Translations under genes and position numbers: made by a program
IMG/VR virus record: IMGVR_UViG_3300042525_000901
Location: 1 to 64,000 of that record
Length of the DNA stretch: 64,000 bases
DNA from: a virus
Direction: 5' to 3' (one strand)
Shown: positions 3,308-62,831 of the stretch, piece by piece
How positions within the stretch are numbered: position 1 is the first letter of the stretch
How the letters are laid out: each line of letters begins with the position of its first letter
The notes under the pieces: model-generated
The model's database searches: none
What the model was told of the DNA's origin: nothing
What the model saw: the letters and a program-made list of their open reading frames with translations, nothing else

Positions 3308-3410
3308 AAAACGGCTGTAGCGTTTGCCCTGTAAATGTTTGGGCTGTTTTGAAAGCGTGCCACGTGATGGCATTACCCCTATAAAAGAAGATTACATGGT
3401 GCACGTGGTA
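3308..3410 (-). repeat. CACGTG repeat element, copy 1
   Basis: Minus-strand copy of the nine-member element. The right arm CACGTGGCAC lies at 3358-3367 and the ACAGCCG box at 3308-3318, exactly 38 bp apart. The far arm at about 3401-3410 is degenerate. It fills the gap between the 3416-4261 gene and the start of the 2585-3268 gene. Confidence 0.85.
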
Positions 3411-3415
3411 GAGAG

Positions 3416-4261
3416 TTATGAGGCGACTGCCTGATTTCCGGTTGTGAGAGTTGGGACAAAATCAACTCCGTCGTACGTTCCCAAAATTGCCCCGTCATCG
3501 GTGGCGACAGATCCAGATGCCGGGTCAACGGCTAGGGTTAGCGACCCGGTACGAGCGAGATCCGCGATCGCCTCTGGTAACGTCCCGAGGTTTTCGTTTA
3601 CCCACGCAAGCGCTACTTTCTCAGCATCAACCTGTTGACGTTCGGTTAGGGGTTCACCCTCGGGCGGTAAGTCCGGGGCGGCGGCATCCGCAATCAAGTC
3701 GGGAGGCGGTAGCTGTAGCAGCGTCATTGACAAATCAGCATCGGCCACCTCGCCGCCCCGCCACGCGATTTCGTTTACGCTGACCTCGGACAGCACAACA
3801 GGCGATAGCGTACGTCTCCCCATGACGAATGACAACGCAGGGGGCGCAAATCGACCATTAACCGGATCGGCCTCTGTGAGCGCCTGCAACGCCTTGATCG
3901 CACCCTCAAGCGACACGCCTGCCAACCAACCCCGCAACTTTACGCCTGAGAGCGAATATGAGCGGCTAGCGGAATGTTGAAACTGTACCGAAGGGTATCG
4001 GCTCGCAAGCGGAGCGGCTTCGGTGTATTTCGCGCCAAATGGTGACGAGATGGATTCAGGGTTGACGAGGAACACCCACGGAGTGATAGTCGAGCCTGGT
4101 GCGGGTTCAAACTCAATCAAACGCGCCTCTGCCTTGTCTTTGCTCGCAGTGGGATAATCAGCCCACGCTCCCTTGTTTGTCCAGCTTGGGAATTTTGGCA
4201 GGGATAGCGCGTTGCGGCTAGGGTCGATTTCCTTCGGTGGCTTATCGAAAGCAAATGTCAT
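3416..4261 (-). CDS. Probable tail tube / baseplate hub-associated protein
   Basis: 281 residues. The central part (about 60-205) alternates beta-type segments around motifs resembling a tail-tube or tube-initiator fold: a VNPESISSPFG turn, a YSLSGVKL strand, FVMGRRT and a WRGGEVADADLSMTL strand. The region after about 210 is acidic and proline-rich. The general pattern recalls gpU-like or LysM-associated proteins of contractile tails, but the match is weak. Its start overlaps the stop of the 4261-4545 gene (TAATG), so the two are translationally coupled. The next gene downstream is the Mu gpF-like head protein. Confidence 0.4.
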   Translation of the reverse strand: MTFAFDKPPKEIDPSRNALSLPKFPSWTNKGAWADYPTASKDKAEARLIEFEPAPGSTITPWVFLVNPESISSPFGAKYTEAAPLASRYPSVQFQHSASRSYSLSGVKLRGWLAGVSLEGAIKALQALTEADPVNGRFAPPALSFVMGRRTLSPVVLSEVSVNEIAWRGGEVADADLSMTLLQLPPPDLIADAAAPDLPPEGEPLTERQQVDAEKVALAWVNENLGTLPEAIADLARTGSLTLAVDPASGSVATDDGAILGTYDGVDFVPTLTTGNQAVAS

Positions 4262-4545: not shown

Positions 4546-4763
4546 AATTTATTAACGACGGCTCCCCTGCGGACACGATCATCATCGGCATTCAAGGCCA
4601 AACGGGTCAGCGCGTAGAAGCGGCTCGCGTCGATATTTTTGCGATCGATTCCGACGGCACAGCCGATGGTACAGCGACAATCACCGTGACCGCGATCGGG
4701 ACAGATTCCGCCGTCTCCGCTGGGCCTGTTACCGTCACGTACACTGATCCGCTGTTCTCGTAA
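4539..4763 (+). CDS. Small beta-rich protein ahead of terminase
   Basis: ATG at 4539 gives 74 residues; an in-frame ATG at 4509 would add ten. The product is almost entirely predicted beta strand, with Thr, Val and Ile alternating (ADGTATITVTAIGTDSAVSA) and no Cys. This looks like a virion decoration or Ig-like surface protein rather than an enzyme. Its stop codon overlaps the start of the small-terminase candidate (TAATG), so it belongs to the packaging operon. Confidence 0.5.
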   Translation: MAQFINDGSPADTIIIGIQGQTGQRVEAARVDIFAIDSDGTADGTATITVTAIGTDSAVSAGPVTVTYTDPLFS

Positions 4764-5224
4764 TGCCTCAAAAACGCCCTGAGAATCCAGACCTGCAACA
4801 GGCGGCGCGTGCCTTAGCCTATGCCGAACTGTACGACGATCGCGCGGCTACGACGGCGTGCGGATGCGATCGCGCGTCGCTGACCCGGTGGCGTGCTAAG
4901 TACCAGCTTGAGCAGGCGGGCGGGTCGGAATTCTCAGAGGCGTTTTACCATTGGCAGCAGCAATTCTCATCACCGGGCGAGACGGTCAAACGAGCGACGA
5001 TCGCCACCAATAAGTTACTCGACACGATCGCCGCGTTTGCTGATCGGGTACAGGGTGACCCTGAATCAGTGCCAGCCGAGATGATGGTCGCGTGTGGTCG
5101 GACACTGGATTACGTGCGGGCAACCGAACGTCAAGCCTCGCAGACAGCGGCATTGGAGCCGCTACGACGCAAGGTGATTACGAAGCAATTAGAATTAGAG
5201 CTGACCATCAGTGGCGATTCGTGA
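4763..5224 (+). CDS. Putative terminase small subunit
   Basis: 153 residues. The N-terminal third holds a helix-turn-helix-like segment (ALAYAELYDDRAATTACGCD then SLTRWRAKY), followed by helices that could oligomerise. Length, position directly before the large terminase and a 14-bp overlap with it all fit a small terminase that recognises the packaging site. The family match is inferred from context; sequence alone would only say DNA-binding helical protein. Confidence 0.55.
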   Translation: MPQKRPENPDLQQAARALAYAELYDDRAATTACGCDRASLTRWRAKYQLEQAGGSEFSEAFYHWQQQFSSPGETVKRATIATNKLLDTIAAFADRVQGDPESVPAEMMVACGRTLDYVRATERQASQTAALEPLRRKVITKQLELELTISGDS

Positions 5225-6212
5225 GTATGGCGATCTCCTGAAGGATGTCCTACCCGATCGCGAGTTCCGGGAACTGGTAGACGCGATCATGGCAGAAGCC
5301 GACGCGGTTGAAGCGGATCGATTTCAGGTTGAACCGGAACCCATTGACGTTCCCGATAACTGGGTGGACTTTGCGCGATCGTGCGTCGTGCGTTCAGGTC
5401 ATGGCACGGTTGGCTTTGATCCGTTCCCGTTCCAAATTGCCTTGGTGGATACCTTTACCAAAAACCGAGGCACGGTGGTGTTGAAGACCCGACAACAGGG
5501 CATCTCCGAAACGTGCTGGATTTGGTTTCTGTGGAAGGCGTGTCGATTCCCCGGCTACACGGCGGCGCTGTTCTCGAAACGGAAGGAAGACACCAGCGAC
5601 TTGGCGCGACGGGTTCGGCTTGCATTGGCGGGCTTGGGCGTGCAATTGGCGTCGGACAACCTCATGACGATCGAGTTGCCCAACCGCTCAAAGCTATTGT
5701 TTCGGACTGCCCGCAAATCAGACGGGCGGGGTATTGCCTCGGTATGGGATCTCCTGTTTGATGAGGCGGCGTTTGTGCCGGATATCGAAGAAATTTATGG
5801 CGGTGCGGTTCCGTCGCAATCGATGCTGGGCGATCGCGCTCGTACGTTGGTTGTGTCAACTCCCGATAGCCCGTCGGGTTGGTATTACGATTTGCTCAAC
5901 ACCGGCAATGGCGATCGCGAAATCGAGGCGGTGTGCCAACAAATCCGCAATCAGGCAGTTGAGCCGTTCCAAGTCTGGACAGACGAGAACGGGTGGGGGA
6001 AGGCGATATTGCATTGGCGAGCGCATCCCATCTACGGAAAGCAAGACGACTACCTGGAACGTGTGGCAAGAAATATGCGCTTGCCAATGTCAACGGTGCG
6101 GCGTGAGTACGACTTGGACTTTGGGCAGTCTGACCGATCGGTGTTTGGCGTTGACCTCGTGAAGCGGGCGCTCGTGATGGATGGCGACGCTGTTGAGTTT
6201 GATGAGTGGTAG
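5211..6212 (+). CDS. terL: Terminase large subunit, ATPase half
   Basis: GTG start at 5211. The 333 residues include the packaging ATPase domain: adenine-binding region near FQIALVDTF, Walker A variant KTRQQGIS around residues 93-100, Walker B LLFDEA around 181-186, and the C-motif VVSTPDSPSG. It stops at DAVEFDEW, just where a normal large terminase would continue into its nuclease domain. The nuclease half is a separate ORF at 8081. The stop codon TAG at 6210-6212 is also the first half of the -10 box TAGAAT of the inserted KilA-N cassette. Either two polypeptides assemble, or the insertion disabled the gene. Confidence 0.9.
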   Translation: MAIREYGDLLKDVLPDREFRELVDAIMAEADAVEADRFQVEPEPIDVPDNWVDFARSCVVRSGHGTVGFDPFPFQIALVDTFTKNRGTVVLKTRQQGISETCWIWFLWKACRFPGYTAALFSKRKEDTSDLARRVRLALAGLGVQLASDNLMTIELPNRSKLLFRTARKSDGRGIASVWDLLFDEAAFVPDIEEIYGGAVPSQSMLGDRARTLVVSTPDSPSGWYYDLLNTGNGDREIEAVCQQIRNQAVEPFQVWTDENGWGKAILHWRAHPIYGKQDDYLERVARNMRLPMSTVRREYDLDFGQSDRSVFGVDLVKRALVMDGDAVEFDEW

Positions 6213-6302
6213 AATGGGGATACTAAAAAGCCCGGTCGCATGGGGACGTTAGCGCGTCCGACCATCACCGGGGGTATCTCGCTCTACCGGGGCGAAACAC
6301 AC
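6210..6302 (+). promoter_or_regulatory. Extended -10 promoter and structured leader, cassette 1
   Basis: TGGTAGAAT is an extended -10 with TAGAAT at 6210-6215. The transcript would begin almost directly with nested stems: GATAC 6219-6223 with GTATC 6274-6278, CCCGGT 6231-6236 with ACCGGG 6267-6272, and an inner hairpin GGACG 6244-6248 with CGTCC 6255-6259 around a 6-nt loop. The leader ends at the KilA-N start. Three other accessory genes have the same architecture with different sequence. Confidence 0.65.
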
Positions 6303-7007
6303 ATGAATTCTAGCAAATCACTGTCGCACAATCTATGCGGGGTTGCTGTTTCCCAAAGCTTTGGAGATGGTTACGTCAATGTGACTCAACTCAGCAAGGC
6401 TTATTTTGAATCGACGGGCAAACGCCGTCAGCCAAATGACTGGCTGCGATTAGAGCGAACGAAAGAGACCTTGGAGCATCTTTCCTCCGTTACGGGGATT
6501 CCCGTAACGGCGCTAGTACGGACGGTTCAGGGTGGTAACGACCTGTCTGCACAGGGAACCTACTTACACCCACGGCTATCGATCCGTTTCGGAATCTGGC
6601 TGTCGGATGAGTTCGGCTTTGCGGTTGAACAGTTTATCTCGCAATGGTCGTCAGAGTTTGGCGACTTTATCCAGACTCGTGACAAAGGCAAGCTGATCCG
6701 CCGATCAACTACCGACGCAATCCAAAACGCGGGCTTTACGGAGCATTATCATTACATCAACGCAACCCAAGTTGTTTACCGATCTCTCTTTGGAAAGACG
6801 GCGAAGGAACTGAAGAAAGACTTAGGCTTGAGCGATCGCGAAAGCTTGCGTGACTCAATGGACGCTCATGATTTACGAATGGTTGAAATGATGGAGTATC
6901 GCCTAGAGAAAGAGCTGGCAAAGGGCGTCCATAAAACGTACTCGGATTTTCATGCAGCCGCGAAACTCATTGGCGAAAATATCAAGACTGCAATGACGAT
7001 TGATTAA
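6303..7007 (+). CDS. KilA-N domain protein
   Basis: 234 residues from the ATG at 6303; an upstream ATG at 6240 falls inside the leader hairpin and is less likely. The N-terminal 110 residues are a KilA-N DNA-binding domain: GDGYVNVTQLSKAYFESTGK, WLRLERTKE, VQGGNDLSAQGTYLHPRLSI and IWLSDEFGFAVEQFI. The C-terminal region (about 120-230) resembles the helical domain often attached to phage antirepressors. Such proteins regulate phage genes or act as antirepressors. It splits the terminase gene, has its own promoter and leader, and ends in a terminator. A 24-bp palindrome lies in the coding sequence at 6487-6510. Confidence 0.85.
   Translation: MNSSKSLSHNLCGVAVSQSFGDGYVNVTQLSKAYFESTGKRRQPNDWLRLERTKETLEHLSSVTGIPVTALVRTVQGGNDLSAQGTYLHPRLSIRFGIWLSDEFGFAVEQFISQWSSEFGDFIQTRDKGKLIRRSTTDAIQNAGFTEHYHYINATQVVYRSLFGKTAKELKKDLGLSDRESLRDSMDAHDLRMVEMMEYRLEKELAKGVHKTYSDFHAAAKLIGENIKTAMTID
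6487..6510. promoter_or_regulatory. Conserved palindrome inside the KilA-N gene
   Basis: CCGTTACGGG and CCCGTAACGG are perfect 10-bp inverted arms around GATT. The homologous place in the second KilA-N gene (57070-57093) is also palindromic, with compensated base changes. It may be a binding site or an RNA hairpin. Confidence 0.6.
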
Positions 7008-7034
7008 TTAGGCGATCGCTCTGATGTAGTTTAT

Positions 7035-7057
7035 GCCCCGTCATTTTGGCGGGGTTT
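7035..7057 (+). terminator. Hairpin terminator after KilA-N gene
   Basis: CCCCG and CGGGG pair around TCATTTTGG and are followed by TTTC. The T run is short. The hairpin sits between the KilA-N stop and the next gene's start. Confidence 0.6.
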
Positions 7058-7065
7058 CAAAAGAA

Positions 7066-7971
7066 ATGTCCAAACAGAAGAAAAATACCCTTCGTCTTGT
7101 GGCAAAAGAGGCTAGCGCGATTGCAAATCGCAACGAGCTTCAAGTAAAACCTTTTCACCGTAAATACGAAACGCTTCGCAAAGCCTTTGTTTCTAATCAA
7201 GGCAACATAAAAATGCAAGCTCCAAACGGGCAAGGTGTACGCATCCTCTCTCGATTCCATTTCAAAGAAACACCTTTAAATTTTGCGTCGCATTTTGAGC
7301 CTTTTTTTCTTTTACTTGCGCTTGCTTATGACATCAGAGAAAAACCTAACTGTGTTCTTGTCGGAGACGAAGCTGACTGTTACCGAGCCATAGAGGTGGT
7401 GGCTCAAGATTGCCTGGAGATAGGCATGTCTTCCCCCTCTTATGCCCGTCCATTGACAACACCAACGATAGGAATTGATCAAACTACAGCAGATCTTTTA
7501 TTTCAAACAGACTTGCCACGGGATTTTTCGAGAACAAAAATCCCGTGGGAATATGGGATTATTTTTTTTGATAAACGGTGTCATAATAGCCGATTTCAAG
7601 ACTTTCCTTGCTGGATTGCGTTTTCTGCTACGGGGAAAAACCTTATTGCCTACAATGAGCTAACCTCTCAATCTGTTGTTATTGATTACCAAAAATCAGG
7701 GCGGAACCGACCTCTGACAATACTAGCCCCTAGCCTTGATGGTGAAATACTTTTTGCTAATGCAGACATAGAAACATCAAGTCCTGATGATCTCAACTGT
7801 GGCAAAAGTAAGCCTGTCGTTACGCTTGAGGATGAATATTTCCTGTTTTGTCGTCGGCTACTAGGCAACGTTTTTGCTATGGCTAACGCATACCCTACGG
7901 ATAAGTCCGCATCACCAACCTCCTTAATATCTTTCAATCTCAGTTCCAAACAAAGTCAACTCAATGGATAA
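7066..7971 (+). CDS. Unknown accessory protein, AT-rich
   Basis: 301 residues from the ATG at 7066. I recognise no domain. The N-terminus is basic (SKQKKNTLRLVAKEAS). The middle has alternating hydrophobic strands (NCVLVGDEADCYRAIEVVAQDC, WEYGIIFFDKR, CWIAFSATGKN), suggesting an alpha/beta fold. Base composition is clearly more AT-rich than the surrounding phage genes and it contains almost no GCGATCGC sites, both signs of recent acquisition. It lies with the KilA-N gene between the two terminase halves, a typical place for a moron. A defence or host-interaction role is possible but unproven. Confidence 0.6.
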   Translation: MSKQKKNTLRLVAKEASAIANRNELQVKPFHRKYETLRKAFVSNQGNIKMQAPNGQGVRILSRFHFKETPLNFASHFEPFFLLLALAYDIREKPNCVLVGDEADCYRAIEVVAQDCLEIGMSSPSYARPLTTPTIGIDQTTADLLFQTDLPRDFSRTKIPWEYGIIFFDKRCHNSRFQDFPCWIAFSATGKNLIAYNELTSQSVVIDYQKSGRNRPLTILAPSLDGEILFANADIETSSPDDLNCGKSKPVVTLEDEYFLFCRRLLGNVFAMANAYPTDKSASPTSLISFNLSSKQSQLNG

Positions 7972-8080
7972 CGGACTCTTTAACCCCTACCCTCAATCAC
8001 ATGATGGATAGTCGCGCCCGCCTAGCGGGGTATGGCTGCTAGTTCGAGGCTGACGCAGTTTATCCCCTGTTTTTAACCCC

Positions 8081-8680
8081 ATGCCCACCGAAACGATCGC
8101 CTCACTCGACTGTGCCACCAGCGGCGCGGACTACCTCGTGTTCCTGGTAGGCCGCGTCACCAGCGAAGGCGTCAAAGTCATCGCCAAATTCAGACGCCAA
8201 AAGGTCACGATGACCGAGGCGATCGCGACGATCGCAGCGATGACAGCCCGCTACGAAATTTCGCGCATCGTCGTCGAAACCACCGGTGGCGTAGGCGAAC
8301 TCTACCGCCAACAGCTCATCGAACGCAGCGATATTCGTGCCGGTATCATCGGCTTCAACACCACGGCACAATCCAAGCCGATCGCGATCGAGCGGCTAGC
8401 CCTCTTCCTAGAGCGCGGTTGGCTGCAAATCTCCGACCCGCAAATCGCCGATGAGCTAAAGGCATTCCAGCGAAACGGACGCAAGCTTGAGGCCGCGTCG
8501 GGTAAGCACGACGACACGGTCATGGCGCTCGCGTTCCTCGTGTCGATTGTGGAGATCGACCGGCTTCAGTATGGCGATCGTGATCCGACGTCCCTTCGGT
8601 TTTTCGCGACCGAACCCAAGCGATACGAGTCCGTGCCCGAGGCTCGCAACGAATTTCGCAGCATGTTTGGAGGCGATTAA
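8081..8680 (+). CDS. terL: Terminase large subunit, nuclease half
   Basis: 199 residues forming an RNase H-like terminase nuclease. The first acidic strand is IASLDCATSG (Asp10), a second acidic position follows IVVET around residue 68, and the third site is the HDDTVMALAF motif around 143-152. A normal large terminase carries this after the ATPase domain; here the ATPase half ends at 6212 and 1868 bp of inserted DNA separate them. The reading frame upstream of the ATG is open for only about a dozen codons. The catalytic residues are intact, so the split protein may still work in trans. Confidence 0.88.
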   Translation: MPTETIASLDCATSGADYLVFLVGRVTSEGVKVIAKFRRQKVTMTEAIATIAAMTARYEISRIVVETTGGVGELYRQQLIERSDIRAGIIGFNTTAQSKPIAIERLALFLERGWLQISDPQIADELKAFQRNGRKLEAASGKHDDTVMALAFLVSIVEIDRLQYGDRDPTSLRFFATEPKRYESVPEARNEFRSMFGGD

Positions 8681-8697
8681 TTCCCAACCAAAATCAC

Positions 8698-8739
8698 ACC
8701 GCTACGGTTTTAAGCTAGGTTCGATTCCTGGCTGCGGTA
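8698..8739 (+). other. tRNA-like T-arm and acceptor fragment
   Basis: CTAGG and CCTGG pair around TTCGATT (8715-8731), a standard T arm. CTGCGGT then A follows, and ACCGC at 8698-8702 can pair with GCGGT. There is no D arm or anticodon arm; only about 12 nt separate the acceptor-like strand from the T arm. This is not a functional tRNA gene. It could be a tRNA remnant, an old attachment site or a chance hairpin ahead of the gene at 8781. Confidence 0.35.
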
Positions 8740-8780
8740 TTCCGCATTGGATGGTGCGGGTTCGTATTACGGAGAAAATC

Positions 8781-9074
8781 ATGTCAGCATATTTGAGCCA
8801 ACCCCAAGACATTGACCTAGAACCGTTCACCGATAGCCCGGACTTGCCGGAGGGTCATCTGATCGTCGGCGGCGTCAAATTCTTTCAGTTGTTCCCGGAT
8901 ATGAGCGAGATCGTCATTCACGTTCCGGGTGACTGGAATGTGAATGACGACCCAATTTACTACCACAAAACAGCACAAGGCGGTCACATTATTTTGTACA
9001 ACGACATCACGGAGCAAGCCATCTTTGTAGGGCATCCCGCCCAGCCAGACACGACTCAGCAGAATCGTCCATAA
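8781..9074 (+). CDS. Small unknown phage protein
   Basis: 97 residues, ATG at 8781 preceded by GGAGAAAATC, which contains a good GGAG ribosome binding site. The protein is acidic, with mostly beta-type segments (HLIVGGVKFFQLF, SEIVIHVPGDW, GGHIILYNDI) and no Cys. It follows the terminase nuclease half and converges on the hub-lysin gene 17 bp later. It might be a virion or tail accessory protein; the family is not recognised. Confidence 0.6.
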   Translation: MSAYLSQPQDIDLEPFTDSPDLPEGHLIVGGVKFFQLFPDMSEIVIHVPGDWNVNDDPIYYHKTAQGGHIILYNDITEQAIFVGHPAQPDTTQQNRP

Positions 9075-9091
9075 ATCCAGCCCAGATCGCC

Positions 9092-11590
9092 CTAGTCCAC
9101 CCGCTGTAATCGAAACACAGCGGCGGGGTAGGGCGTTCCCTCGAAGGAAATATCTTTGCTGTCGTAGAAGTTGTCGAACTCGATGTTTGAGTCCCACACA
9201 AAAGACGTGCGTGACGAGCTGTTTGAAATCACGCGACCATTGCCGGTAGCAATCCCAATATGATACGCACCATGCGAAAACACGATGTCGCCCGGTTGCG
9301 CTTCGCTTAGGGGAATTTGCACAGCGTTTCCGGGCTGCAAACACCAGTTATAAACAGTCGGGCAATGCACTGGATTAGCGGAGCCAATAACACCGCCGCC
9401 GGTCGCGTTGGCGATGATAGCGTTCACTGACCACGCGCACGCATTGGTTCCACCATCAGGCCCCGAACTCGTGTCAGTTCCGATATATGCCTGAGCCGCT
9501 GCGTAGATGGCCGCGTTTAGGTCGGACGGTACATTGGTCGCTCCTGTCGTTGCTGCCCCCGTAGCGCCCGCGCTAGCCGCTGCTACCGCCTGTTCAGGCG
9601 CGGCTTTCTGTGGCGTATAAAACTCGATCGTCGTGACCGCATGACCGCCACCAATCTTGTGGCCGACGCGACCCACACGATACTCACGGGCGAACGCACG
9701 GCGGGCGTAGTCGTTGTTAAACAGTGCGGGGTCAAGGCCAAAAATTGAGCCGGGAACCAATGTCAAGACGGGGTAGGTCGTAAGCAGTTCCAGCGACCCG
9801 GTAACGCCCTTAACCCGGCGCGATTCGTTCGGGATTGCCTCCGCTGTGGCCGTGCCGTCGTCCGCTAAATCAGCCGCGCCAATCTTCTGGTTAGGCAGTC
9901 CTGTGATCGATGTATCGAGTACCGGCGGCGGAACCTCAAGGATTAACTCAGCAGCCGATCGCGTTTCGGCTTGCGTCGGGGTTGGTTCGGCCTGGGGCGT
10001 GCCGTGCACTGGCAAAGATTGCGAGCCCGTAGTAAATGTGCGAACTGCGTTACCCGTTCCCGTGGGGTCGTCTGTTTCGAGTACAACAATCTCAGAGGTT
10101 AGCGGGTTGATAGCTGCGCTTGCTTTCCCGGCTTCCGAGTCAGGCTCGCTTTCCGTTTCGAGTTGAGCGTCAGAAGTAACAGCGCCCGATCGCCGTTCGG
10201 TGATGGCCGAATCTGACCACGAAGCCGATATCAAAATGTCAGGCGTGACGACGAAGTTGGTGAAATGCGGAACCCACGGTTCAATCGTCAGCACCGCGCC
10301 ATCATCCACAACACGCAAACCATGAGCGCGACATTCTCTCAGGAGCAGTCGTAGATCGCTAATTCCGTCTTGAGATAGATAAGCGTACGTTGTCCCGTCG
10401 AATGGTTCACCGTTGGCGTCAACCATGTTGAGCGTCAGCCCGTGAGCTGCGCAAATGTTTTCAGCAAGCTGACGTAACGTGATGTTCTCGTAGGCCGTGT
10501 TTTTCTTTCGGCGATCAAGCAACCATCGAATTGACTGACCTTTGATCGTCAGCACGTCAGGTCGCATCGCCACGTCCAAGCCGGTATGAATGAAGTGATA
10601 GGAGATCGTTTGCTCTGCACTCTCAAAGCCCAGCTCTACGATGATTTCAGTACCAACATCGGCGGTTGGCGTTTCTATCGTTTCTGGGGGCGTTTCTGTG
10701 GCTGTGGTGGTATCTTCCGTTGTGGGTTCGGGTGTCGTTGGCGGCGGTGCAGCTGTGGTCGCTCCCGTGAGAGCTGACGCAAGGTCTCCTGATTGCAAGC
10801 GAGATAGGTAGTCGTCTGCATAGCCTGCGATCATCCCGCCATTAAGAGCAACGTCGCCATTGACGATCGCACGCGCCCCAACAAAATCAGCGCGCCCGCC
10901 TCCGATGTAGTCGCTTAGGCCAACGCCCGTGTAAGTGCCGTTGGCCATCCCGTGAACCAGGACATAGGCGCTCATGCTTGCGTTTGTGGCAAGTTGCTCA
11001 GGGTTGCCAATCAGGTCAACGCCTAGCAGGTCGGAATAACGCTGGTAGTTGATTCGCCCGGTTAGCTGCACATAGCCGCGTCCTTTGAAGCGCACGCCGT
11101 CACCGGGCTGTGTGTTGCCAAGGTCGCTACGCCCCTCGTACGCTTCACCGCTAGCGTATTCTTCAAGCGTATTGAATCGGTCGGACTCGTGGTAGGCGGT
11201 CGCCAAAATGTAGGCAATTTGGTTAACGTCACTCACTCCCTGACGGAGACATTCAGCGATGATCGCCAATTCGTTCGACGCTTGCCCCTGCGTAAATCCA
11301 GACGAACCGGGTGCGCCTACCGTTGCTTCACCCGTTCCGGCTGTTGCTGCTGGGGGTTGTGGATCTTGTAACAGCTCAGGGCTAACGATGATTCCGCCTT
11401 GAGCTTCGATCTCGACAAACTTTTCTCCCGAATACACCAGCCCCGGATCGTTTACCTCAATCGTGCAGGTAGCCGATCGCTTGTCTTCCCCCAAATCAAC
11501 CGAGACGGACAAGAGGCGTTCGTCGCCAGTTTGGAGAACGTTCTGCCCAAACGTGACGCGAGTAAAAGTGACGCGCTCGTAATAACCCAC
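9092..11590 (-). CDS. Tail hub protein with built-in GH19 and NlpC/P60 lysin domains
   Basis: 832 residues. The N-terminal 75 residues and the segment around 320-460 look like a gpD/gp27-type tail hub. Inserted near 95-270 is a GH19 chitinase/lysozyme-like domain with catalytic-type YHES (Glu135), TLEEYASGEAYEGR and FKGRGYVQLTGR. A Thr/Pro-rich linker (270-320) follows. The C-terminal 130 residues resemble an NlpC/P60 or CHAP amidase, with Cys in TNACAW around 717 and His in HGAYHIGIA. The protein would sit at the tail tip and open peptidoglycan during DNA entry. Carrying two different wall hydrolases in one hub is unusual. Confidence 0.8.
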   Translation of the reverse strand: MGYYERVTFTRVTFGQNVLQTGDERLLSVSVDLGEDKRSATCTIEVNDPGLVYSGEKFVEIEAQGGIIVSPELLQDPQPPAATAGTGEATVGAPGSSGFTQGQASNELAIIAECLRQGVSDVNQIAYILATAYHESDRFNTLEEYASGEAYEGRSDLGNTQPGDGVRFKGRGYVQLTGRINYQRYSDLLGVDLIGNPEQLATNASMSAYVLVHGMANGTYTGVGLSDYIGGGRADFVGARAIVNGDVALNGGMIAGYADDYLSRLQSGDLASALTGATTAAPPPTTPEPTTEDTTTATETPPETIETPTADVGTEIIVELGFESAEQTISYHFIHTGLDVAMRPDVLTIKGQSIRWLLDRRKKNTAYENITLRQLAENICAAHGLTLNMVDANGEPFDGTTYAYLSQDGISDLRLLLRECRAHGLRVVDDGAVLTIEPWVPHFTNFVVTPDILISASWSDSAITERRSGAVTSDAQLETESEPDSEAGKASAAINPLTSEIVVLETDDPTGTGNAVRTFTTGSQSLPVHGTPQAEPTPTQAETRSAAELILEVPPPVLDTSITGLPNQKIGAADLADDGTATAEAIPNESRRVKGVTGSLELLTTYPVLTLVPGSIFGLDPALFNNDYARRAFAREYRVGRVGHKIGGGHAVTTIEFYTPQKAAPEQAVAAASAGATGAATTGATNVPSDLNAAIYAAAQAYIGTDTSSGPDGGTNACAWSVNAIIANATGGGVIGSANPVHCPTVYNWCLQPGNAVQIPLSEAQPGDIVFSHGAYHIGIATGNGRVISNSSSRTSFVWDSNIEFDNFYDSKDISFEGTPYPAAVFRLQRVD

Positions 11591-11672: not shown

Positions 11673-11777
11673 GTGCCACGTGCACCACATAATATCTTTT
11701 ATATAAGGGTAAGGTCATCACGTGGCACGACGCCAAAAACGCCCAATCCTTTACCATTCATTCGTTACAGCCGTTTT
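11673..11777 (+). repeat. CACGTG repeat element, copy 2
   Basis: The most perfect arms of the family: GTGCCACGTG (11673-11682) and CACGTGGCAC (11719-11728), 36 bp apart, then 38 bp, then ACAGCCGTTTT at 11767. It lies between the start of the hub gene and the end of the next minus-strand gene, whose stop codon it overlaps. Confidence 0.9.
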
Positions 11778-13514: not shown

Positions 13515-13515
13515 T

Positions 13516-13619
13516 CTGCCACGTGCACCATGTAATCTTCTTTTATAGGGGTAATGCCATCACGTGGCACGCTTCCAAAATCCCCGCACATTCGACCCCG
13601 TAAACGTTACAGCCATTCT
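13516..13619 (+). repeat. CACGTG repeat element, copy 3
   Basis: CTGCCACGTG (13516-13525) and CACGTGGCAC (13561-13570), 35 bp apart, then 38 bp, then ACAGCCATTC at 13609. It lies in the gap before the spike gene at 13631. Confidence 0.9.
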
Positions 13620-14425: not shown

Positions 14426-14444
14426 AAAGCTGGATTGTTGCTGC

Positions 14445-14546
14445 TAGAATATTAGGGTATTTTGATCGCCGCGCCGAATGGTGGAACATTCGGCATTATC
14501 AGCGGTAATCAAAAGGAACTCTCGATCCCATACATAGATTTTACCA
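14445..14546 (+). promoter_or_regulatory. Extended -10 promoter and structured leader, cassette 2
   Basis: TGCTAGAAT gives TAGAAT at 14445-14450. The outer stem TTTTGAT 14460-14466 pairs with ATCAAAA 14508-14514. The inner hairpin is CCGAATG 14474-14480 with CATTCGG 14487-14493 and a 6-nt loop, followed by CATTA as in cassettes 3 and 4. Confidence 0.65.
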
Positions 14547-15743
14547 ATGGCTGACTTATTTTTCCCGTGTTCGGAACCACTGCGCCACGACTCTGGGCGC
14601 AGTGGTGTCATGCTGATTCAAACAACAGCGGATTGGGTCGTCAAAGCTCATCGCAAATTGGACTTGATTTCGGCTAACTTGCGGACTCAATGCCTGAATA
14701 AAACGGTTCGAGAGATTATTGATACGTTGATCCGAGAGCCTGAGATGTTCATCTTCAAAGCTGACCCGATCAAGCTCTCGATCGAAACAGCGGTGTACAG
14801 TTATGCAAAAGGCGGGCTGGAATGCGTGGCTTTGCCGTCGCAAGGTCAAGGCTTCAACAATGGGGGCGGTCGTATTCGCGCCTTTTGCTTGGCTGTTGAG
14901 CAATCCGATTCTGTTGACCTATCAAAGATCCCGGTTTTCCTCCATATCGCTTACGGCTTAAGCGACGAAAAACAGGTAGATGTGTGCGTAGCTTCAAACA
15001 CATCTACGAACGTTGGGGCTGCATCAATCCTAAATAAACGCGGGATCTTTGACCCCATCAAGGAGCGCTGGGGTGACAAGTTCCCCTGGTGCGTCTATCA
15101 CGAGGGACAGCACACGGCGGATCTGGGAGAGGCGCATTCGTTCTCCTCGTCAGTGTCTGTCGTTCTTTTGATCAACCTGATGCTATGTGTCAGCCCTTCC
15201 TACAACTATGAGCTAGGGAAGCATCCATCCTCCATTGTTTCTGGCAGCGGCGTTTTGTCCGCCCCTCGGCTGGCCGAGATTAGTATCAAACACCGACTAC
15301 ACTTGCTTGGAGATTTGTACGATATTTGGTTTTACGGGATGGAAGCTATAAAGGCGTACGTTGATCGCTATGGGTGGGTAAGTCAGGAGACCGGGCGTCC
15401 CTTTTTCCCTAGCACAAAGAATAGCCCAAAAAAAGCTACTCATTTCATGCATACGCCTCTCAAGTGGCCTGGGCTAATCAGCAAAGACATTCCGGTTCCA
15501 GTCGTCGCTGCTTGCCGTGTTTTTCTTCGCGACAATGACTGGGGCGTGACCCGTTCCTGGTTGATGAAAGTAGCCGTTCCCGCGCTTTGGAAACAGTACC
15601 AGATTTCGCTAGTCAAAAGTGCCAAGATACAGAAATACACCAACCTTCGCGCCGCGCTAGGTCATGAGTCCATGTGGTCGAGTTTGGTCATCAAAGCGCA
15701 AAGCCTGCTGAACGAATATAACGAACAGAAGCGATCAGCTTAG
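14547..15743 (+). CDS. AIPR-like abortive-infection protein
   Basis: 398 residues. The segment NNGGGRIRAFCLA around residues 109-121, followed by IPVFLHIAYG and VCVASNTSTNVGAASIL, resembles the central motif of AIPR (abortive infection phage resistance) proteins, in which a NGxQR-type motif is followed by an atNtq motif. No membrane segment is seen. AIPR proteins are implicated in phage exclusion, but the mechanism is not shown by the sequence. It has its own promoter, structured leader and a long hairpin downstream, so it is an inserted moron between the spike and head-completion genes. Confidence 0.55.
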   Translation: MADLFFPCSEPLRHDSGRSGVMLIQTTADWVVKAHRKLDLISANLRTQCLNKTVREIIDTLIREPEMFIFKADPIKLSIETAVYSYAKGGLECVALPSQGQGFNNGGGRIRAFCLAVEQSDSVDLSKIPVFLHIAYGLSDEKQVDVCVASNTSTNVGAASILNKRGIFDPIKERWGDKFPWCVYHEGQHTADLGEAHSFSSSVSVVLLINLMLCVSPSYNYELGKHPSSIVSGSGVLSAPRLAEISIKHRLHLLGDLYDIWFYGMEAIKAYVDRYGWVSQETGRPFFPSTKNSPKKATHFMHTPLKWPGLISKDIPVPVVAACRVFLRDNDWGVTRSWLMKVAVPALWKQYQISLVKSAKIQKYTNLRAALGHESMWSSLVIKAQSLLNEYNEQKRSA

Positions 15744-15753
15744 CCCTGTTTCT

Positions 15754-15810
15754 TACCACAGCGAAAACACCCGGATCTTGTAGGACGATCCGGGTATTTT
15801 CGCTGTGGTA
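15754..15810. terminator. Long inverted repeat, terminator overlapping the next promoter
   Basis: A 24-bp arm at 15754-15777 and its complement at 15787-15810 differ at one position and are separated by 9 bp. The core is ACCCGGATC with GATCCGGGT, bounded by AAAA and TTTT. The right arm contains the TGG of the next extended -10 box. It can end transcription of the AIPR-like gene. Confidence 0.75.
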
Positions 15811-15903
15811 AAATGATGGAGTATTTTGATCGCCTAGCCAGGTGCTACCAACACCCGGCATTACCAAGACGATCTTCCTGCGTGAACACACCACGCAATC
15901 AAC
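15807..15903 (+). promoter_or_regulatory. Extended -10 promoter and structured leader, cassette 3
   Basis: TGGTAAAAT with TAAAAT at 15809-15814. The outer stem GATCGCC 15828-15834 pairs with GACGATC 15868-15874 with one mismatch. The inner hairpin is CCAGGTG 15838-15844 with CACCCGG 15852-15858. GCATTACCAA separates the two stems, as in cassette 4. Confidence 0.7.
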
Positions 15904-23073: not shown

Positions 23074-23113
23074 GAGGATTGAAGTGTGTTGCCACAATCC
23101 TACTGCGATTATC

Positions 23114-23217
23114 TAGCCACGTGCACCATGTAATTCTTTTATATAGGGGTAATGCCATCACGTGGCACGCTTCCAAAATCGCCGGAACGCTTACAGTATA
23201 AAAGCTACAGCCGTTTG
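23114..23217 (+). repeat. CACGTG repeat element, copy 4
   Basis: TAGCCACGTG (23114-23123) and CACGTGGCAC (23159-23168), 35 bp apart, then 38 bp, then ACAGCCGTTT at 23207. It opens the gene-free block that contains iteron array A. Confidence 0.9.
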
Positions 23218-26333: not shown

Positions 26334-26356
26334 CATTATACATAAAACACACAAGT
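26334..26356 (-). promoter_or_regulatory. Early-type promoter
   Basis: Minus-strand TTGTGTGTTTTATG followed by TATAAT, about 30 bp upstream of the 26305 start codon. Same family as the other early promoters. Confidence 0.55.
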
Positions 26357-27537
26357 TAGGAAATGATAGGCAGTGCGCTATCAATGGTTGCTACGACGTT
26401 GGTAAAATCGGGCAGATACTCAACTTTCTCGGTCTGTACGTCCAGAATGACGGGAATTTGCTTATGGCGCTTGGGACTGTTCCATAGTTTTAGAAACCGG
26501 TACTCAATCTCTTGCTTGCGTTTGGTGGACTGGAACAACACCGATCGCTGTCCCAAAATTTCGTCAGCAATCATCGTTTTGTTTTCGTCTCGTGCCAGAC
26601 CGAACCACGAGAAACTTCGACGGGCTTGGCTGGTCAGCCCCATGTCTTCGCATAGTGCCGACTGCGTAATCAGGACAACATGAACGCCTGAGTGAGCGGC
26701 CATGTAAACGAGTTGCTGCAAAATCGTTTTGATTTTCTTCGCAAGAATCGTTTTGTTTTCGTCGTCGTATGCCTTAACCATTGCCAACATGGAAACCCAC
26801 TCATCAGCCACGATCAAAAGTTTCTTCTGGGATAACTCAGGGTTCTCCTGGCGCTGTCTTGCGAGAACTTGCATTGACTCCCAAAAGTCAACGACAGCAT
26901 CGGGATTGAACTTGTCATAGTTCCCCGGTCTCGTGACTTTTGCTAGCGGAGGCCATTCGGTATCTTTGGGGTCAATGATACGAATATCGGATTCCGGGAA
27001 TTGTTCCAGCATCGCAGCCAGGAACGCTTTGATCAGATAGGTTTTGCCCATGCGAGTTGCCGCCACGATCGCGACGTGCTTCGGCACGGTCGTGTCGGCC
27101 ATCGTCGCGATCGCGCTGCCATAGCGATCGGCTATCGTTGGCGTTTTGACTGGTTCGGGTGGTAGCGAAATAGGGGGCGGATCGTCGATGGGGGCTGGAA
27201 CGGAGATGGTTGGTGCACTCGCCACCGTTGGCGGGGCGAAATCAAAATCGTCATCATCGTCGTCGTCTGGCTCAATTACGCGCGATCGTCTAGGCGATTC
27301 GGATGGCTCATCCTCAATCTCATCATCGCCGTAGTCATCCCCGGCGGTTTTCATGAGCTGAAACGTTGCCCACGCCGATACTCCGCCCATGACTGCCAGG
27401 GGCAAATTTGGGCGAGACGTTGTGCGGTAGGTTGTGCCGTCCTCAACTCGGATTTCGGAATGCTCCTGAAATCCTGCAAGTACGGCGCAACCTGACGCGA
27501 TTAGGTTGAGCCAAAGTAATGATTTCGTTTTCGACAT
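26356..27537 (-). CDS. FtsK/HerA-like ATPase with membrane segment
   Basis: 393 residues. N-terminal hydrophobic segment (SLLWLNLIASGCAVLAGF), then a very acidic linker (about 75-110, EPDDDDDDDFDFAPP) and a C-terminal ATPase: Walker A AATRMGKTYL around residues 158-167, Walker B LLIVADEWVSM, and the sensor VHVVLITQS. The motor is of the FtsK/HerA superfamily used for DNA transfer or virion packaging. Here it is grouped with an M23 peptidase and membrane proteins. It is coupled to the next gene (27537). Confidence 0.75.
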   Translation of the reverse strand: MSKTKSLLWLNLIASGCAVLAGFQEHSEIRVEDGTTYRTTSRPNLPLAVMGGVSAWATFQLMKTAGDDYGDDEIEDEPSESPRRSRVIEPDDDDDDDFDFAPPTVASAPTISVPAPIDDPPPISLPPEPVKTPTIADRYGSAIATMADTTVPKHVAIVAATRMGKTYLIKAFLAAMLEQFPESDIRIIDPKDTEWPPLAKVTRPGNYDKFNPDAVVDFWESMQVLARQRQENPELSQKKLLIVADEWVSMLAMVKAYDDENKTILAKKIKTILQQLVYMAAHSGVHVVLITQSALCEDMGLTSQARRSFSWFGLARDENKTMIADEILGQRSVLFQSTKRKQEIEYRFLKLWNSPKRHKQIPVILDVQTEKVEYLPDFTNVVATIDSALPIIS

Positions 27538-46878: not shown

Positions 46879-46980
46879 AAAAACGTTAGACAGCTTGAGG
46901 CGTAAGCAGCGCAGCCATTTTAGCTTTGTGCCACGTGAACCACTTACCCTTATATAAAGGTATATACGTGTCATGGCAGA
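46879..46980 (-). repeat. CACGTG repeat element, copy 6
   Basis: Minus-strand copy. GTGCCACGTG on the plus strand (46928-46937) is the conserved arm; 38 bp away is a diverged ACAGCCG-like box (CTAACGTTTT on the minus strand). The other arm is degenerate near 46966-46980. It sits between two divergent genes, 46734 and 47011. Confidence 0.75.
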
Positions 46981-56776: not shown

Positions 56777-57256
56777 TCAATCGTATGGAGTCACGTCATC
56801 CATTGCCGCGTCCCATGAGTTTTGGCGATGCCAAAGCATATCCCGGCGCAGTTCGTCGCGATTGTACTCGGATTGATTGAGCGCGTGCTTGAGTGAAGAC
56901 AACTCTTCCTGTAGTTCGACTTTGCCTTGGGTTAGCAGTTTCTCGATCATGGAGTAAACCCAAACCTCGAACGCAGCATTAAGCCACGCAGCCAGTTTTA
57001 AGGCGACTCGCGGATGAACCCATGTACCTTGCAGTTGCGGCGTACCACCTTGAACTTGCTGGATCAATTCCGTTATGGGAATTCCCATAACGGGCGAAAG
57101 TGCCTCTAGGTAAGCCTTTGTGGATTTCAATCGAAGAAAGTCAGCAAACAATCGACCATGACGCTGACACATTTCTGTTGCGTTCCAGTACCCATCAGAA
57201 CGAATGGTGATGGGTTTGCCGCTGTCGAAATACTCGCGAAAAACTGATAAACTCAT
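56777..57256 (-). CDS. Second KilA-N domain protein
   Basis: 159 residues. The KilA-N core is clear: ITIRSDGYWNATEMCQRHGRLFADFLRL, TKAYLEALSPVMGIPITEL, then QLQGTWVHPRVALKLAAWL. A C-terminal coiled coil (VELQEELSSLKHALNQSEYN) may dimerise it. It shares the IQQVQGGTPQ/VQGG motif and the internal palindrome with the 6303 gene, so the two are related. It lies in a minus-strand insertion between tail chaperone and tape measure. Confidence 0.85.
   Translation of the reverse strand: MSLSVFREYFDSGKPITIRSDGYWNATEMCQRHGRLFADFLRLKSTKAYLEALSPVMGIPITELIQQVQGGTPQLQGTWVHPRVALKLAAWLNAAFEVWVYSMIEKLLTQGKVELQEELSSLKHALNQSEYNRDELRRDMLWHRQNSWDAAMDDVTPYD
57070..57093. promoter_or_regulatory. Conserved palindrome inside the second KilA-N gene
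   Basis: CCGTTATGGG and CCCATAACGG are perfect inverted arms around AATT. Compared with the first KilA-N gene, the C-G pair is a T-A pair in both arms. Confidence 0.6.
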
Positions 57257-57352
57257 ATTGATTGCGTGGTTGGTACACGCATGACGATCGCCTTGGTAAT
57301 GCCGGATGCTGTCAACATCTGGCTAGGCGATCAAATACTTCATAATTTTACC
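57257..57352 (-). promoter_or_regulatory. Extended -10 promoter and structured leader, cassette 4
   Basis: On the minus strand TGGTAAAAT gives TAAAAT at 57345-57350. Outer stem GATCGCC with GGCGATC is perfect; inner hairpin is CCAGATG with CATCCGG. GCATTACCAA separates them as in cassette 3. Confidence 0.7.
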
Positions 57353-57408
57353 ACGACTTCCAGCAGGGTAAAACCCTATCTAGCTTGGGCAGAAGATTCC
57401 CCATATTT

Positions 57409-58504: not shown

Positions 58505-58608
58505 GGATCGGCCAGGACGTTTGCTGCGTAAATGCTTGAGCGATTTCGAGGGTGTGCCACGTGAACCCTTTACCCCTATATAAAAGAATTACATGGTGCA
58601 TGTGGCAA
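58505..58608 (-). repeat. CACGTG repeat element, copy 7
   Basis: GTGCCACGTG on the plus strand (58554-58563) and CATGTGGCAA (58599-58608), 35 bp apart; 38 bp beyond the first arm lies a diverged ACAGCCG-like box (CTGGCCG on the minus strand). It separates the divergent genes 58394 and 58649. Confidence 0.8.
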
Positions 58609-59415: not shown

Positions 59416-59519
59416 AAAACGGCTGTGACGTAATCACCCAAAGCGTCACAGCCGTTTTCTATGCCTGCCACGTGACCTCATTACCCTTATATAAAAGAAT
59501 TACATGGTGCATGTGGATC
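59416..59519 (-). repeat. CACGTG repeat element, copy 8, with extra hairpin
   Basis: CTGCCACGTG (59465-59474) and CATGTGGATC (59510-59519), 35 bp apart; AAAACGGCTGT lies at 59416-59426, exactly 38 bp from the first arm. A second inverted copy of the ACAGCCG box (59448-59456) makes a hairpin in the 38-bp spacer that could act as a terminator. Confidence 0.85.
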
Positions 59520-62500: not shown

Positions 62501-62723
62501 AGAGCTAATTCTGAACCGCGCCCAATACGGTAGCCTTCTAAGTCAACGCGCCCGACCGATCGCGATCGCGCAACGCGAAAACCAGATCGCCTTCGCTACG
62601 TTTGCACCGACCATCAACCTGAATGTTGCTCAAACCGGCCAGGTTGATCCTCGCCAAATCGCAAAACAGGTGATGGCCGAATTAGATCGGGAGTACCGCC
62701 AATGGTCAGCGGGCATGGCCTAA
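59595..62723 (+). CDS. Tail tape measure protein with hendecad repeat
   Basis: 1042 residues from the GTG at 59595. The N-terminal half is charged and helical, with a characteristic GASLTLGLTAPLVGAGALAVKAF (about 75-97). The middle (491-710) is twenty 11-residue units beginning Phe (for example FAIKATTAIAQ and FVVQGILGISR), giving a hydrophobic hendecad. The C-terminal half has FWSNLTSSIQMIGLNIQFQL and returns to charged helices. Tape measure proteins set tail length and can aid DNA entry across membranes. It is coupled to the downstream repeat copy 9. Confidence 0.85.
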   Translation: MIRVAETQSFILEAIDRASAPLRRVSEAFGRVSAAAEQMGARAGRAASGVGKTFDEMADAAQRSGARMRDVGASLTLGLTAPLVGAGALAVKAFADYEHSLASLSKATGLTGADLDTMGQKFREIASSDLPVAANDLLAIATEGAKMGIASTELERFTRLTATMATAFDISAQDVTGQTAKVANQFKILNAATGELDFARMETFGDAVNNMADNMATSEAKILEAVSRMAGITQPLGFDENQTAALAAGFTALGMEADVASRAVNSSMQRLANAPALTEDAVAALEEMGYSAEDLQKQFLDGKGPEAYIGFLQKISGMGSKAIPLLTEIFGTGFSDEMARGGVGIEQFSKAFGLMEESISGGGATMQKSLEIMGGTSQAEFQKLKSAALDVLVVFGRLLAEAVLPLAKGLRQALIAMSEFGQTNPGLAKVIVSILAIAAAIGPVVFAIGTVQGAFAALGVFLSGGFGAALVGVVTSLTGTLAVGLTMFAQFSAGAIAAILRFTVTGAAHVLGFAIKATTAIAQFAIKATTSLIQFAAQGVAAIARFAASSIVSLAQFALRGVASVASFVVSALAQLGTFVVQGILGISRFATQGAIALVQFAAKGAAAIGWFVVDSALAIAEFVLTGLVEIGKFVAQSLVSLGKFAVQGAIALGKFAINGVLAIARFVATSTISLASFAAQGAISIAKFVASGTLSLVKFAAQAAITFAPLLLGAAALAAAGYLVYKNWDGISEVLSRAELPKADSAKLSAKIGIEVENSADIVEALFQKPLQTIGAISSAYLGAFSDIWNGFWSNLTSSIQMIGLNIQFQLTSWGVAFSAFVAGVASWVTSLGASITAVFAGIVAAFAALQSSAIAKASEITTTVVNAFEGIRATFDGLREGAIAKVAEIRDAITNAFDGVKSQIQSALSSIPNPFANLRIPSFSRGGSVGNSAQGNIPQSVAGLLSAAQREARAMPAGSALTVANTSELILNRAQYGSLLSQRARPIAIAQRENQIAFATFAPTINLNVAQTGQVDPRQIAKQVMAELDREYRQWSAGMA

Positions 62724-62727
62724 CTTT

Positions 62728-62831
62728 CTGCCACGTGCACCATGTAATCTTCTTTTATAGGGGGAAAGGCATCACGTGGCACGCTTCCAAAATCGCTCAA
62801 AGATTCACGCTACAAACGTTACAGCCGTTTC
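62728..62831 (+). repeat. CACGTG repeat element, copy 9
   Basis: CTGCCACGTG (62728-62737) and CACGTGGCAC (62773-62782), 35 bp apart, then 38 bp, then ACAGCCGTTT at 62821. As with copy 4, it opens a gene-free block with an iteron array. Confidence 0.9.

Follow-up and report, generated by a model that had tools for sequence, protein, structure and literature searches.

Can the large terminase (TerL) of a tailed phage, the motor that packages its genome, work when its ATPase and nuclease are encoded apart? The question is raised by an uncultured phage in the IMG/VR collection (record IMGVR_UViG_3300042525_000901), in which the two domains of TerL lie in separate open reading frames (ORFs) with other DNA between them. 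The window analysed here comprises the first 64,000 bases of this 65,707-nt record; identical ends were looked for in the virus record and none were found. The window carries the gene set of a contractile-tailed phage (myovirus), including sheath, tube, tape measure, baseplate and helicases, together with genes for a polymerase processivity factor, the small subunit of ribonucleotide reductase (RNR) and an endolysin-like protein; the portal gene gives a weak match only, and none of the ORFs tested was recognisable as a major capsid protein. The host is probably a cyanobacterium, as judged from the 77 copies of GCGATCGC in the window and from the nearest terminase relatives, which belong to cyanobacterial phages and genomes. 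Two further genes lie on the minus strand: 26356–27537 encodes a HerA/FtsK-like ATPase with an additional match to a PHROG terminase profile, and 9092–11590 encodes an 832-residue protein in which chitinase-like/endolysin and gp44-like baseplate hub parts are combined with an NlpC/P60-like end. Additionally, repeats of ~50–110 nt, flanked by CACGTG and with TATATAA inside, occur in both orientations at 3309–3418, 11676–11776, 13515–13618, 23112–23216, 46918–46979, 58540–58606, 59417–59516 and 62721–62830; these are probably phage promoters or some other control site.

The ATPase half of TerL (positions 5211–6212, plus strand) begins with GTG and encodes 333 residues, ending with DGDAVEFDEW directly before a TAG stop codon. 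The nuclease half (8081–8680, plus strand) has its own ATG and encodes an RNase H-like protein of 199 residues, the gap between the two ORFs being 1,868 nt. The halves match Terminase_6N and Terminase_6C, respectively, and both match PHROG TerL profiles; the original prediction, that the gene is split between ATPase and nuclease, is borne out with exact coordinates, the junction falling in the interdomain linker. It had also held that both halves keep their catalytic motifs, and all of the residues concerned are indeed present: the ATPase half retains a deviant P-loop (KTRQQGIS), Walker B (LLFDE) and the coupling motif (STP), each aligned with those of the relatives, and in the nuclease half D10, E66 and D144/D145 occupy invariant alignment columns. 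An AlphaFold2 model of the nuclease half alone has a mean pLDDT of 83, with values above 90 over the first ten residues, and finds its best match among solved structures in T4 gp17 (3cpe; E 6e-10); it is a confident prediction of a complete RNase H-like domain, from the first residues on. Both the ATPase and the nuclease domain of a TerL are, therefore, present, but in two ORFs rather than in one polypeptide as in the relatives, and we class the protein as a split TerL, not as a standard one. The whole 65,707-nt record holds a single match to the ATPase half, and thus no second TerL ATPase.

Directly 5' of the ATPase half, and overlapping its start by 14 nt, lies a probable small terminase gene (4763–5224, plus strand; 153 residues), judged from this position and from the HTH-like predicted protein, which has weak matches to HTH_23 and HTH_Tnp_1 that lie under the curated cut-off. 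At the other end of the locus, neither a promoter nor a Shine–Dalgarno sequence was recognised before the nuclease ORF at 8081. The missing Shine–Dalgarno sequence means little, because just 9 of the 33 genes checked have one (it is absent from the other 24); given that no promoter of its own is recognised, expression of the nuclease gene would rely on readthrough.

When the two halves are concatenated, they align over their full length with unsplit TerLs of ~490 residues, from Nodularia and Cylindrospermopsis phages and from many metagenome contigs, with no block missing; the ATPase half corresponds to the N-terminal two thirds of these proteins. The junction (DAVEFDEW / MPTE) sits in the variable linker between ATPase and nuclease, which is here about as long as in the relatives or slightly longer; hence, no recognisable motor sequence has been lost. 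The unsplit relative demanded by the original prediction was found many times over, and places the junction in the linker: in 38 of the 57 relatives retrieved via the ATPase half (many of the 38 being near-duplicates of each other) the nuclease follows in the same uninterrupted frame, and nearly all of the remainder show either a TerL-length open frame or a contig edge. The 26 relatives checked via the nuclease half are, likewise, single long ORFs or reach contig edges. The lone exception is a distant ATPase-only TerL-like ORF of 341 residues (contig L092, 5947–6972), with no nuclease recognised among the ORFs listed after it. The split is, therefore, derived. What this search did not yield is a close relative with an empty insertion site: the closest relatives of both halves are the TerL of Nodularia phage vB_NpeS-2AV2 and those of contigs L049, L050, L104 and L105, at ~30–45% identity. 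The same alignment contains two full-length TerLs (L053, 5875–7362; L057, 5878–7383) in which the first nuclease Asp is missing and Lys occupies the position of the second acidic residue (VLKRADG); the nucleases of these two proteins may be inactive.

What, then, divides the gene? A KilA-N cassette and an AT-rich gene do lie between the halves as predicted, but the start of the former is better placed at 6303 than at 6240. The KilA-N gene (6303–7007, plus strand; Pfam KilA-N, E 2e-19) is related to genes on plasmids of Nostoc, Trichormus and Calothrix, and homology to the Nostoc plasmid genes makes 6303 the most likely start, within a frame that is open from 6240. The C-terminal part of its product resembles the PADLOC family PDC-S13 (E 1.4e-10), and this likeness to candidate defence proteins fits a cargo gene. 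Upstream of the gene (6207–6302, plus strand) lie a promoter-like element, TGGTAGAAT, and a structured 5' leader whose hairpin has a minimum free energy (MFE) of −40.6 (z −3.0). The TAG that ends the ATPase half (6210–6212) falls within the −10-like TAGAAT of TGGTAGAAT; a consensus scan found no −35 match for it, and its activity as a promoter is presumed. The ORF open from 6240 is in frame with the ATPase half and continues into the KilA-N gene, which raises the possibility of readthrough of the TAG; this continuity was judged a matter of chance, because the start given by homology is 6303 and the intervening stretch forms the leader hairpin.

The same arrangement recurs before three other genes of the phage: the ORFs at 14547 (leader 14442–14546, plus strand) and 15904 (leader 15806–15903, plus strand), and a second KilA-N gene at 57256 (leader 57257–57353, minus strand). 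The family thus comprises four genes, two of them KilA-N, which share TGNTARAAT, then a folded leader (z ~−3), and an ATG 97–105 nt further on; the leader often carries GTATTTTGATCGCC after TGNTARAAT, followed by the hairpin and CATTACC. TGGTA[AGT]AAT occurs six times against 0.7 expected, and three of the six stand in this promoter/leader layout. Elsewhere, exact-pattern scans returned the sister contigs described below and chance matches in unrelated DNA, and otherwise nothing. Given the recurrence of the layout, the proposal that the TAG stop codon lies within the −10 box of the KilA-N unit is well supported as a matter of anatomy. Near one of these leaders, an inverted repeat with 47-nt arms (15731–15833), terminator-like in appearance, continues straight into TGTGGTAAAAT, the promoter-like element of the next unit.

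The remainder of the insert is less easily described. Reading of the sequence 3' of the KilA-N gene reveals a terminator-like hairpin (7034–7056, plus strand; CCCCGTCA-TTT-TGGCGGGG-TTT) with a short T run; it is absent from the results of a terminator scan, and is, therefore, a weak candidate. The AT-rich ORF follows (7066–7971, plus strand; 42% GC), probably starting at 7066 (301 residues) as opposed to 7033 (312 residues). It is an orphan: no relatives were found in Pfam, PHROGs, PADLOC, NCBIfam, 386 genomes of the phylum, phages or plasmids, and a single-sequence AlphaFold2 model has a mean pLDDT of 32. The GC content of the insert is ~42–53%, compared with 56–60% in the flanks, and neither the KilA-N gene nor the orphan ORF matches any endonuclease family. 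The best reading of these features is that the insert is a moron-like cassette that landed in the TerL hinge. Its two components, the KilA-N unit and the AT-rich ORF, could have arrived in separate events, so that the gene may or may not have been ended by a single insertion as originally predicted. The split is real, derived and lossless, and was probably made at the hinge by a moron-like insert. It also has the marks of a gene in pieces, since the insertion divides a gene that is single in its relatives and leaves both parts intact.

We propose that an ancestral phage, whose TerL was an ordinary single chain, received, in the DNA coding for the linker and with no loss of coding sequence, a moron-like transcription unit made up of the promoter/leader and the KilA-N gene, and that the AT-rich ORF arrived either with this unit or separately. 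The −10-like TAGAAT of the insert would now end the ATPase chain, and the ATG at 8081 would begin the nuclease chain. The two domains would most likely be synthesised as two polypeptides and come together at the portal, where the ATPase chain would act as the engine, and the nuclease chain, docked via the interdomain surface, would guide and cut the DNA. We lean modestly towards the view that the cassette entered the linker without loss and that TerL now consists of two polypeptides acting in trans. That both starts are used, that the chains assemble in trans and that they can package DNA is inferred, and the chances seem evenly poised that a tailed phage here packages its genome with a natural two-chain large terminase after a cargo cassette hit the hinge.

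Such a motor would contradict what is known of T4. When gp17 is cut at the linker, ATPase and nuclease activities remain, but translocation is abolished, and in the leading T4 model the ATPase–nuclease linker is part of the power stroke (PMC3012670). Either the domains are coupled non-covalently in the present phage, or one of the rival explanations is true, and it is this that makes the locus worth testing.

The T4 result is also an argument that the phage, or its lineage, is defective, the insertion having killed packaging and the halves having yet to decay. Moreover, the locus is identical in all three of the contigs that carry it, so long persistence is not evident. However, both ORFs are intact with their catalytic residues kept, other phage functions look present, and the contigs with the identical locus bear different sample identifiers. 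Decay is not favoured because both halves are open and complete, and we regard a defective phage as unlikely: the intact ORFs, the confidently predicted nuclease fold and the rich myovirus gene set lead us to favour a working motor.

Splicing is the first alternative to come to mind for such an arrangement, because introns in terL are known from several phages: an unrecognised self-splicing intron containing the two ORFs would allow a continuous TerL to be made from spliced RNA. Such introns are documented in ICP1 (PMC10448857) and in Bacillus phages (PMC11878797), and the split is lossless and frame-neutral, as expected of an intron. Against this, Rfam searches of 4700–9400, 6180–8110 and the whole window revealed neither a group I nor a group II intron, the insert giving no match even at E 10, whereas the same search detects the proven terL intron of ICP1 (E 3.7e-9) as a positive control. 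Additionally, non-coding DNA makes up just ~260 nt of the insert, and neither of its ORFs has a homing endonuclease domain; we, therefore, consider an intron rather improbable. An intein or split intein was excluded on other grounds, as there is no space for one within the boundaries of the ORFs: the ATPase half stops at the linker, the nuclease half begins four residues before its first strand, and there is no extra domain.

It is also possible that the nuclease half has been replaced, having been acquired from another phage while the ATPase came from a different source, but we give this only a slim chance. The halves differ in their synonymous C/G use (Fisher p 0.0004, the lowest value among 20 genes tested), although the C-rich stretch does not extend over the final third of the nuclease ORF. 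The ATPase half is nearest to L049, L050 and L104, and the nuclease half to L105 and L051; nonetheless, a shared placement is not rejected by tree tests that compare the same relatives (AU p 0.07–0.46), the one strongly rejected set being uninformative in that it omits L105 from its own clade. The branch leading to the nuclease half is the longer (1.96 versus 0.91 for the ATPase half), but by pairwise identity its excess divergence is mild. The longer branch and the differing synonymous composition could reflect either relaxed constraint or a different origin. Lastly, misjoins do occur in metagenome contigs, but an assembly artefact that joined unrelated DNA within terL is exceedingly improbable here, as two other IMG/VR contigs, from separate sample identifiers (albeit samples that are perhaps not independent), are 100% identical base for base across the locus over 8.8–10.9 kb, and the stop codon at the junction is part of the inserted gene's leader.

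Were the proposed two-chain motor to function, the covalent coupling at the hinge, which is required in T4, would be dispensable and not universally needed, and the nuclease would come under separate expression control. A naturally cut linker offers a ready test of the T4 model, in that the domains would be coupled non-covalently, the break repaired somehow, or packaging lost. Functional genes in pieces would, moreover, extend from enzymes of nucleotide and DNA synthesis to a molecular motor, broken not by a homing endonuclease but by a moron-like cargo unit. A literature search for split terminases returned none, the related reports consulted concerning introns, inteins or a split DNA polymerase.

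The split TerL is a variant of the genes-in-pieces arrangement, of which phage NrdA and DNA polymerase are known examples, in this instance affecting the packaging motor. In Aeromonas phage Aeh1, where mobE is inserted into NrdA, and in gp43 of Aeromonas phage 25, the split enzymes are reported to work as two chains (PMC2988022). As in those cases, an insertion divides an essential phage gene into two ORFs; there, however, the inserted gene encodes a homing endonuclease, whereas the present insert consists of a KilA-N gene, preceded by a leader of its own, and an orphan ORF, and the broken gene is that of a packaging motor whose two-chain function is predicted. ICP1 and the Bacillus phages SIOphi and phiAGATE similarly have terL in two frames separated by other DNA (PMC10448857, PMC11878797), but theirs are rejoined by RNA splicing, and no intron was detected here. 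The TerL of the Microcystis phage Mic1 is another cyanophage TerL interrupted by foreign sequence (PMC7156551), but as one open frame with inteins within the domains, in contrast to separate ORFs cut between the domains. In the related Nodularia phage vB_NpeS-2AV2, terL is uninterrupted, and a KilA-N gene is found outside it, at a distance of a few genes. The closest parallel in the position of the break is the laboratory-cut gp17 of T4, with the ATPase and nuclease as separate chains divided at the same place (PMC3012670); that cut was engineered and packaging was lost, whereas the split described here is natural.
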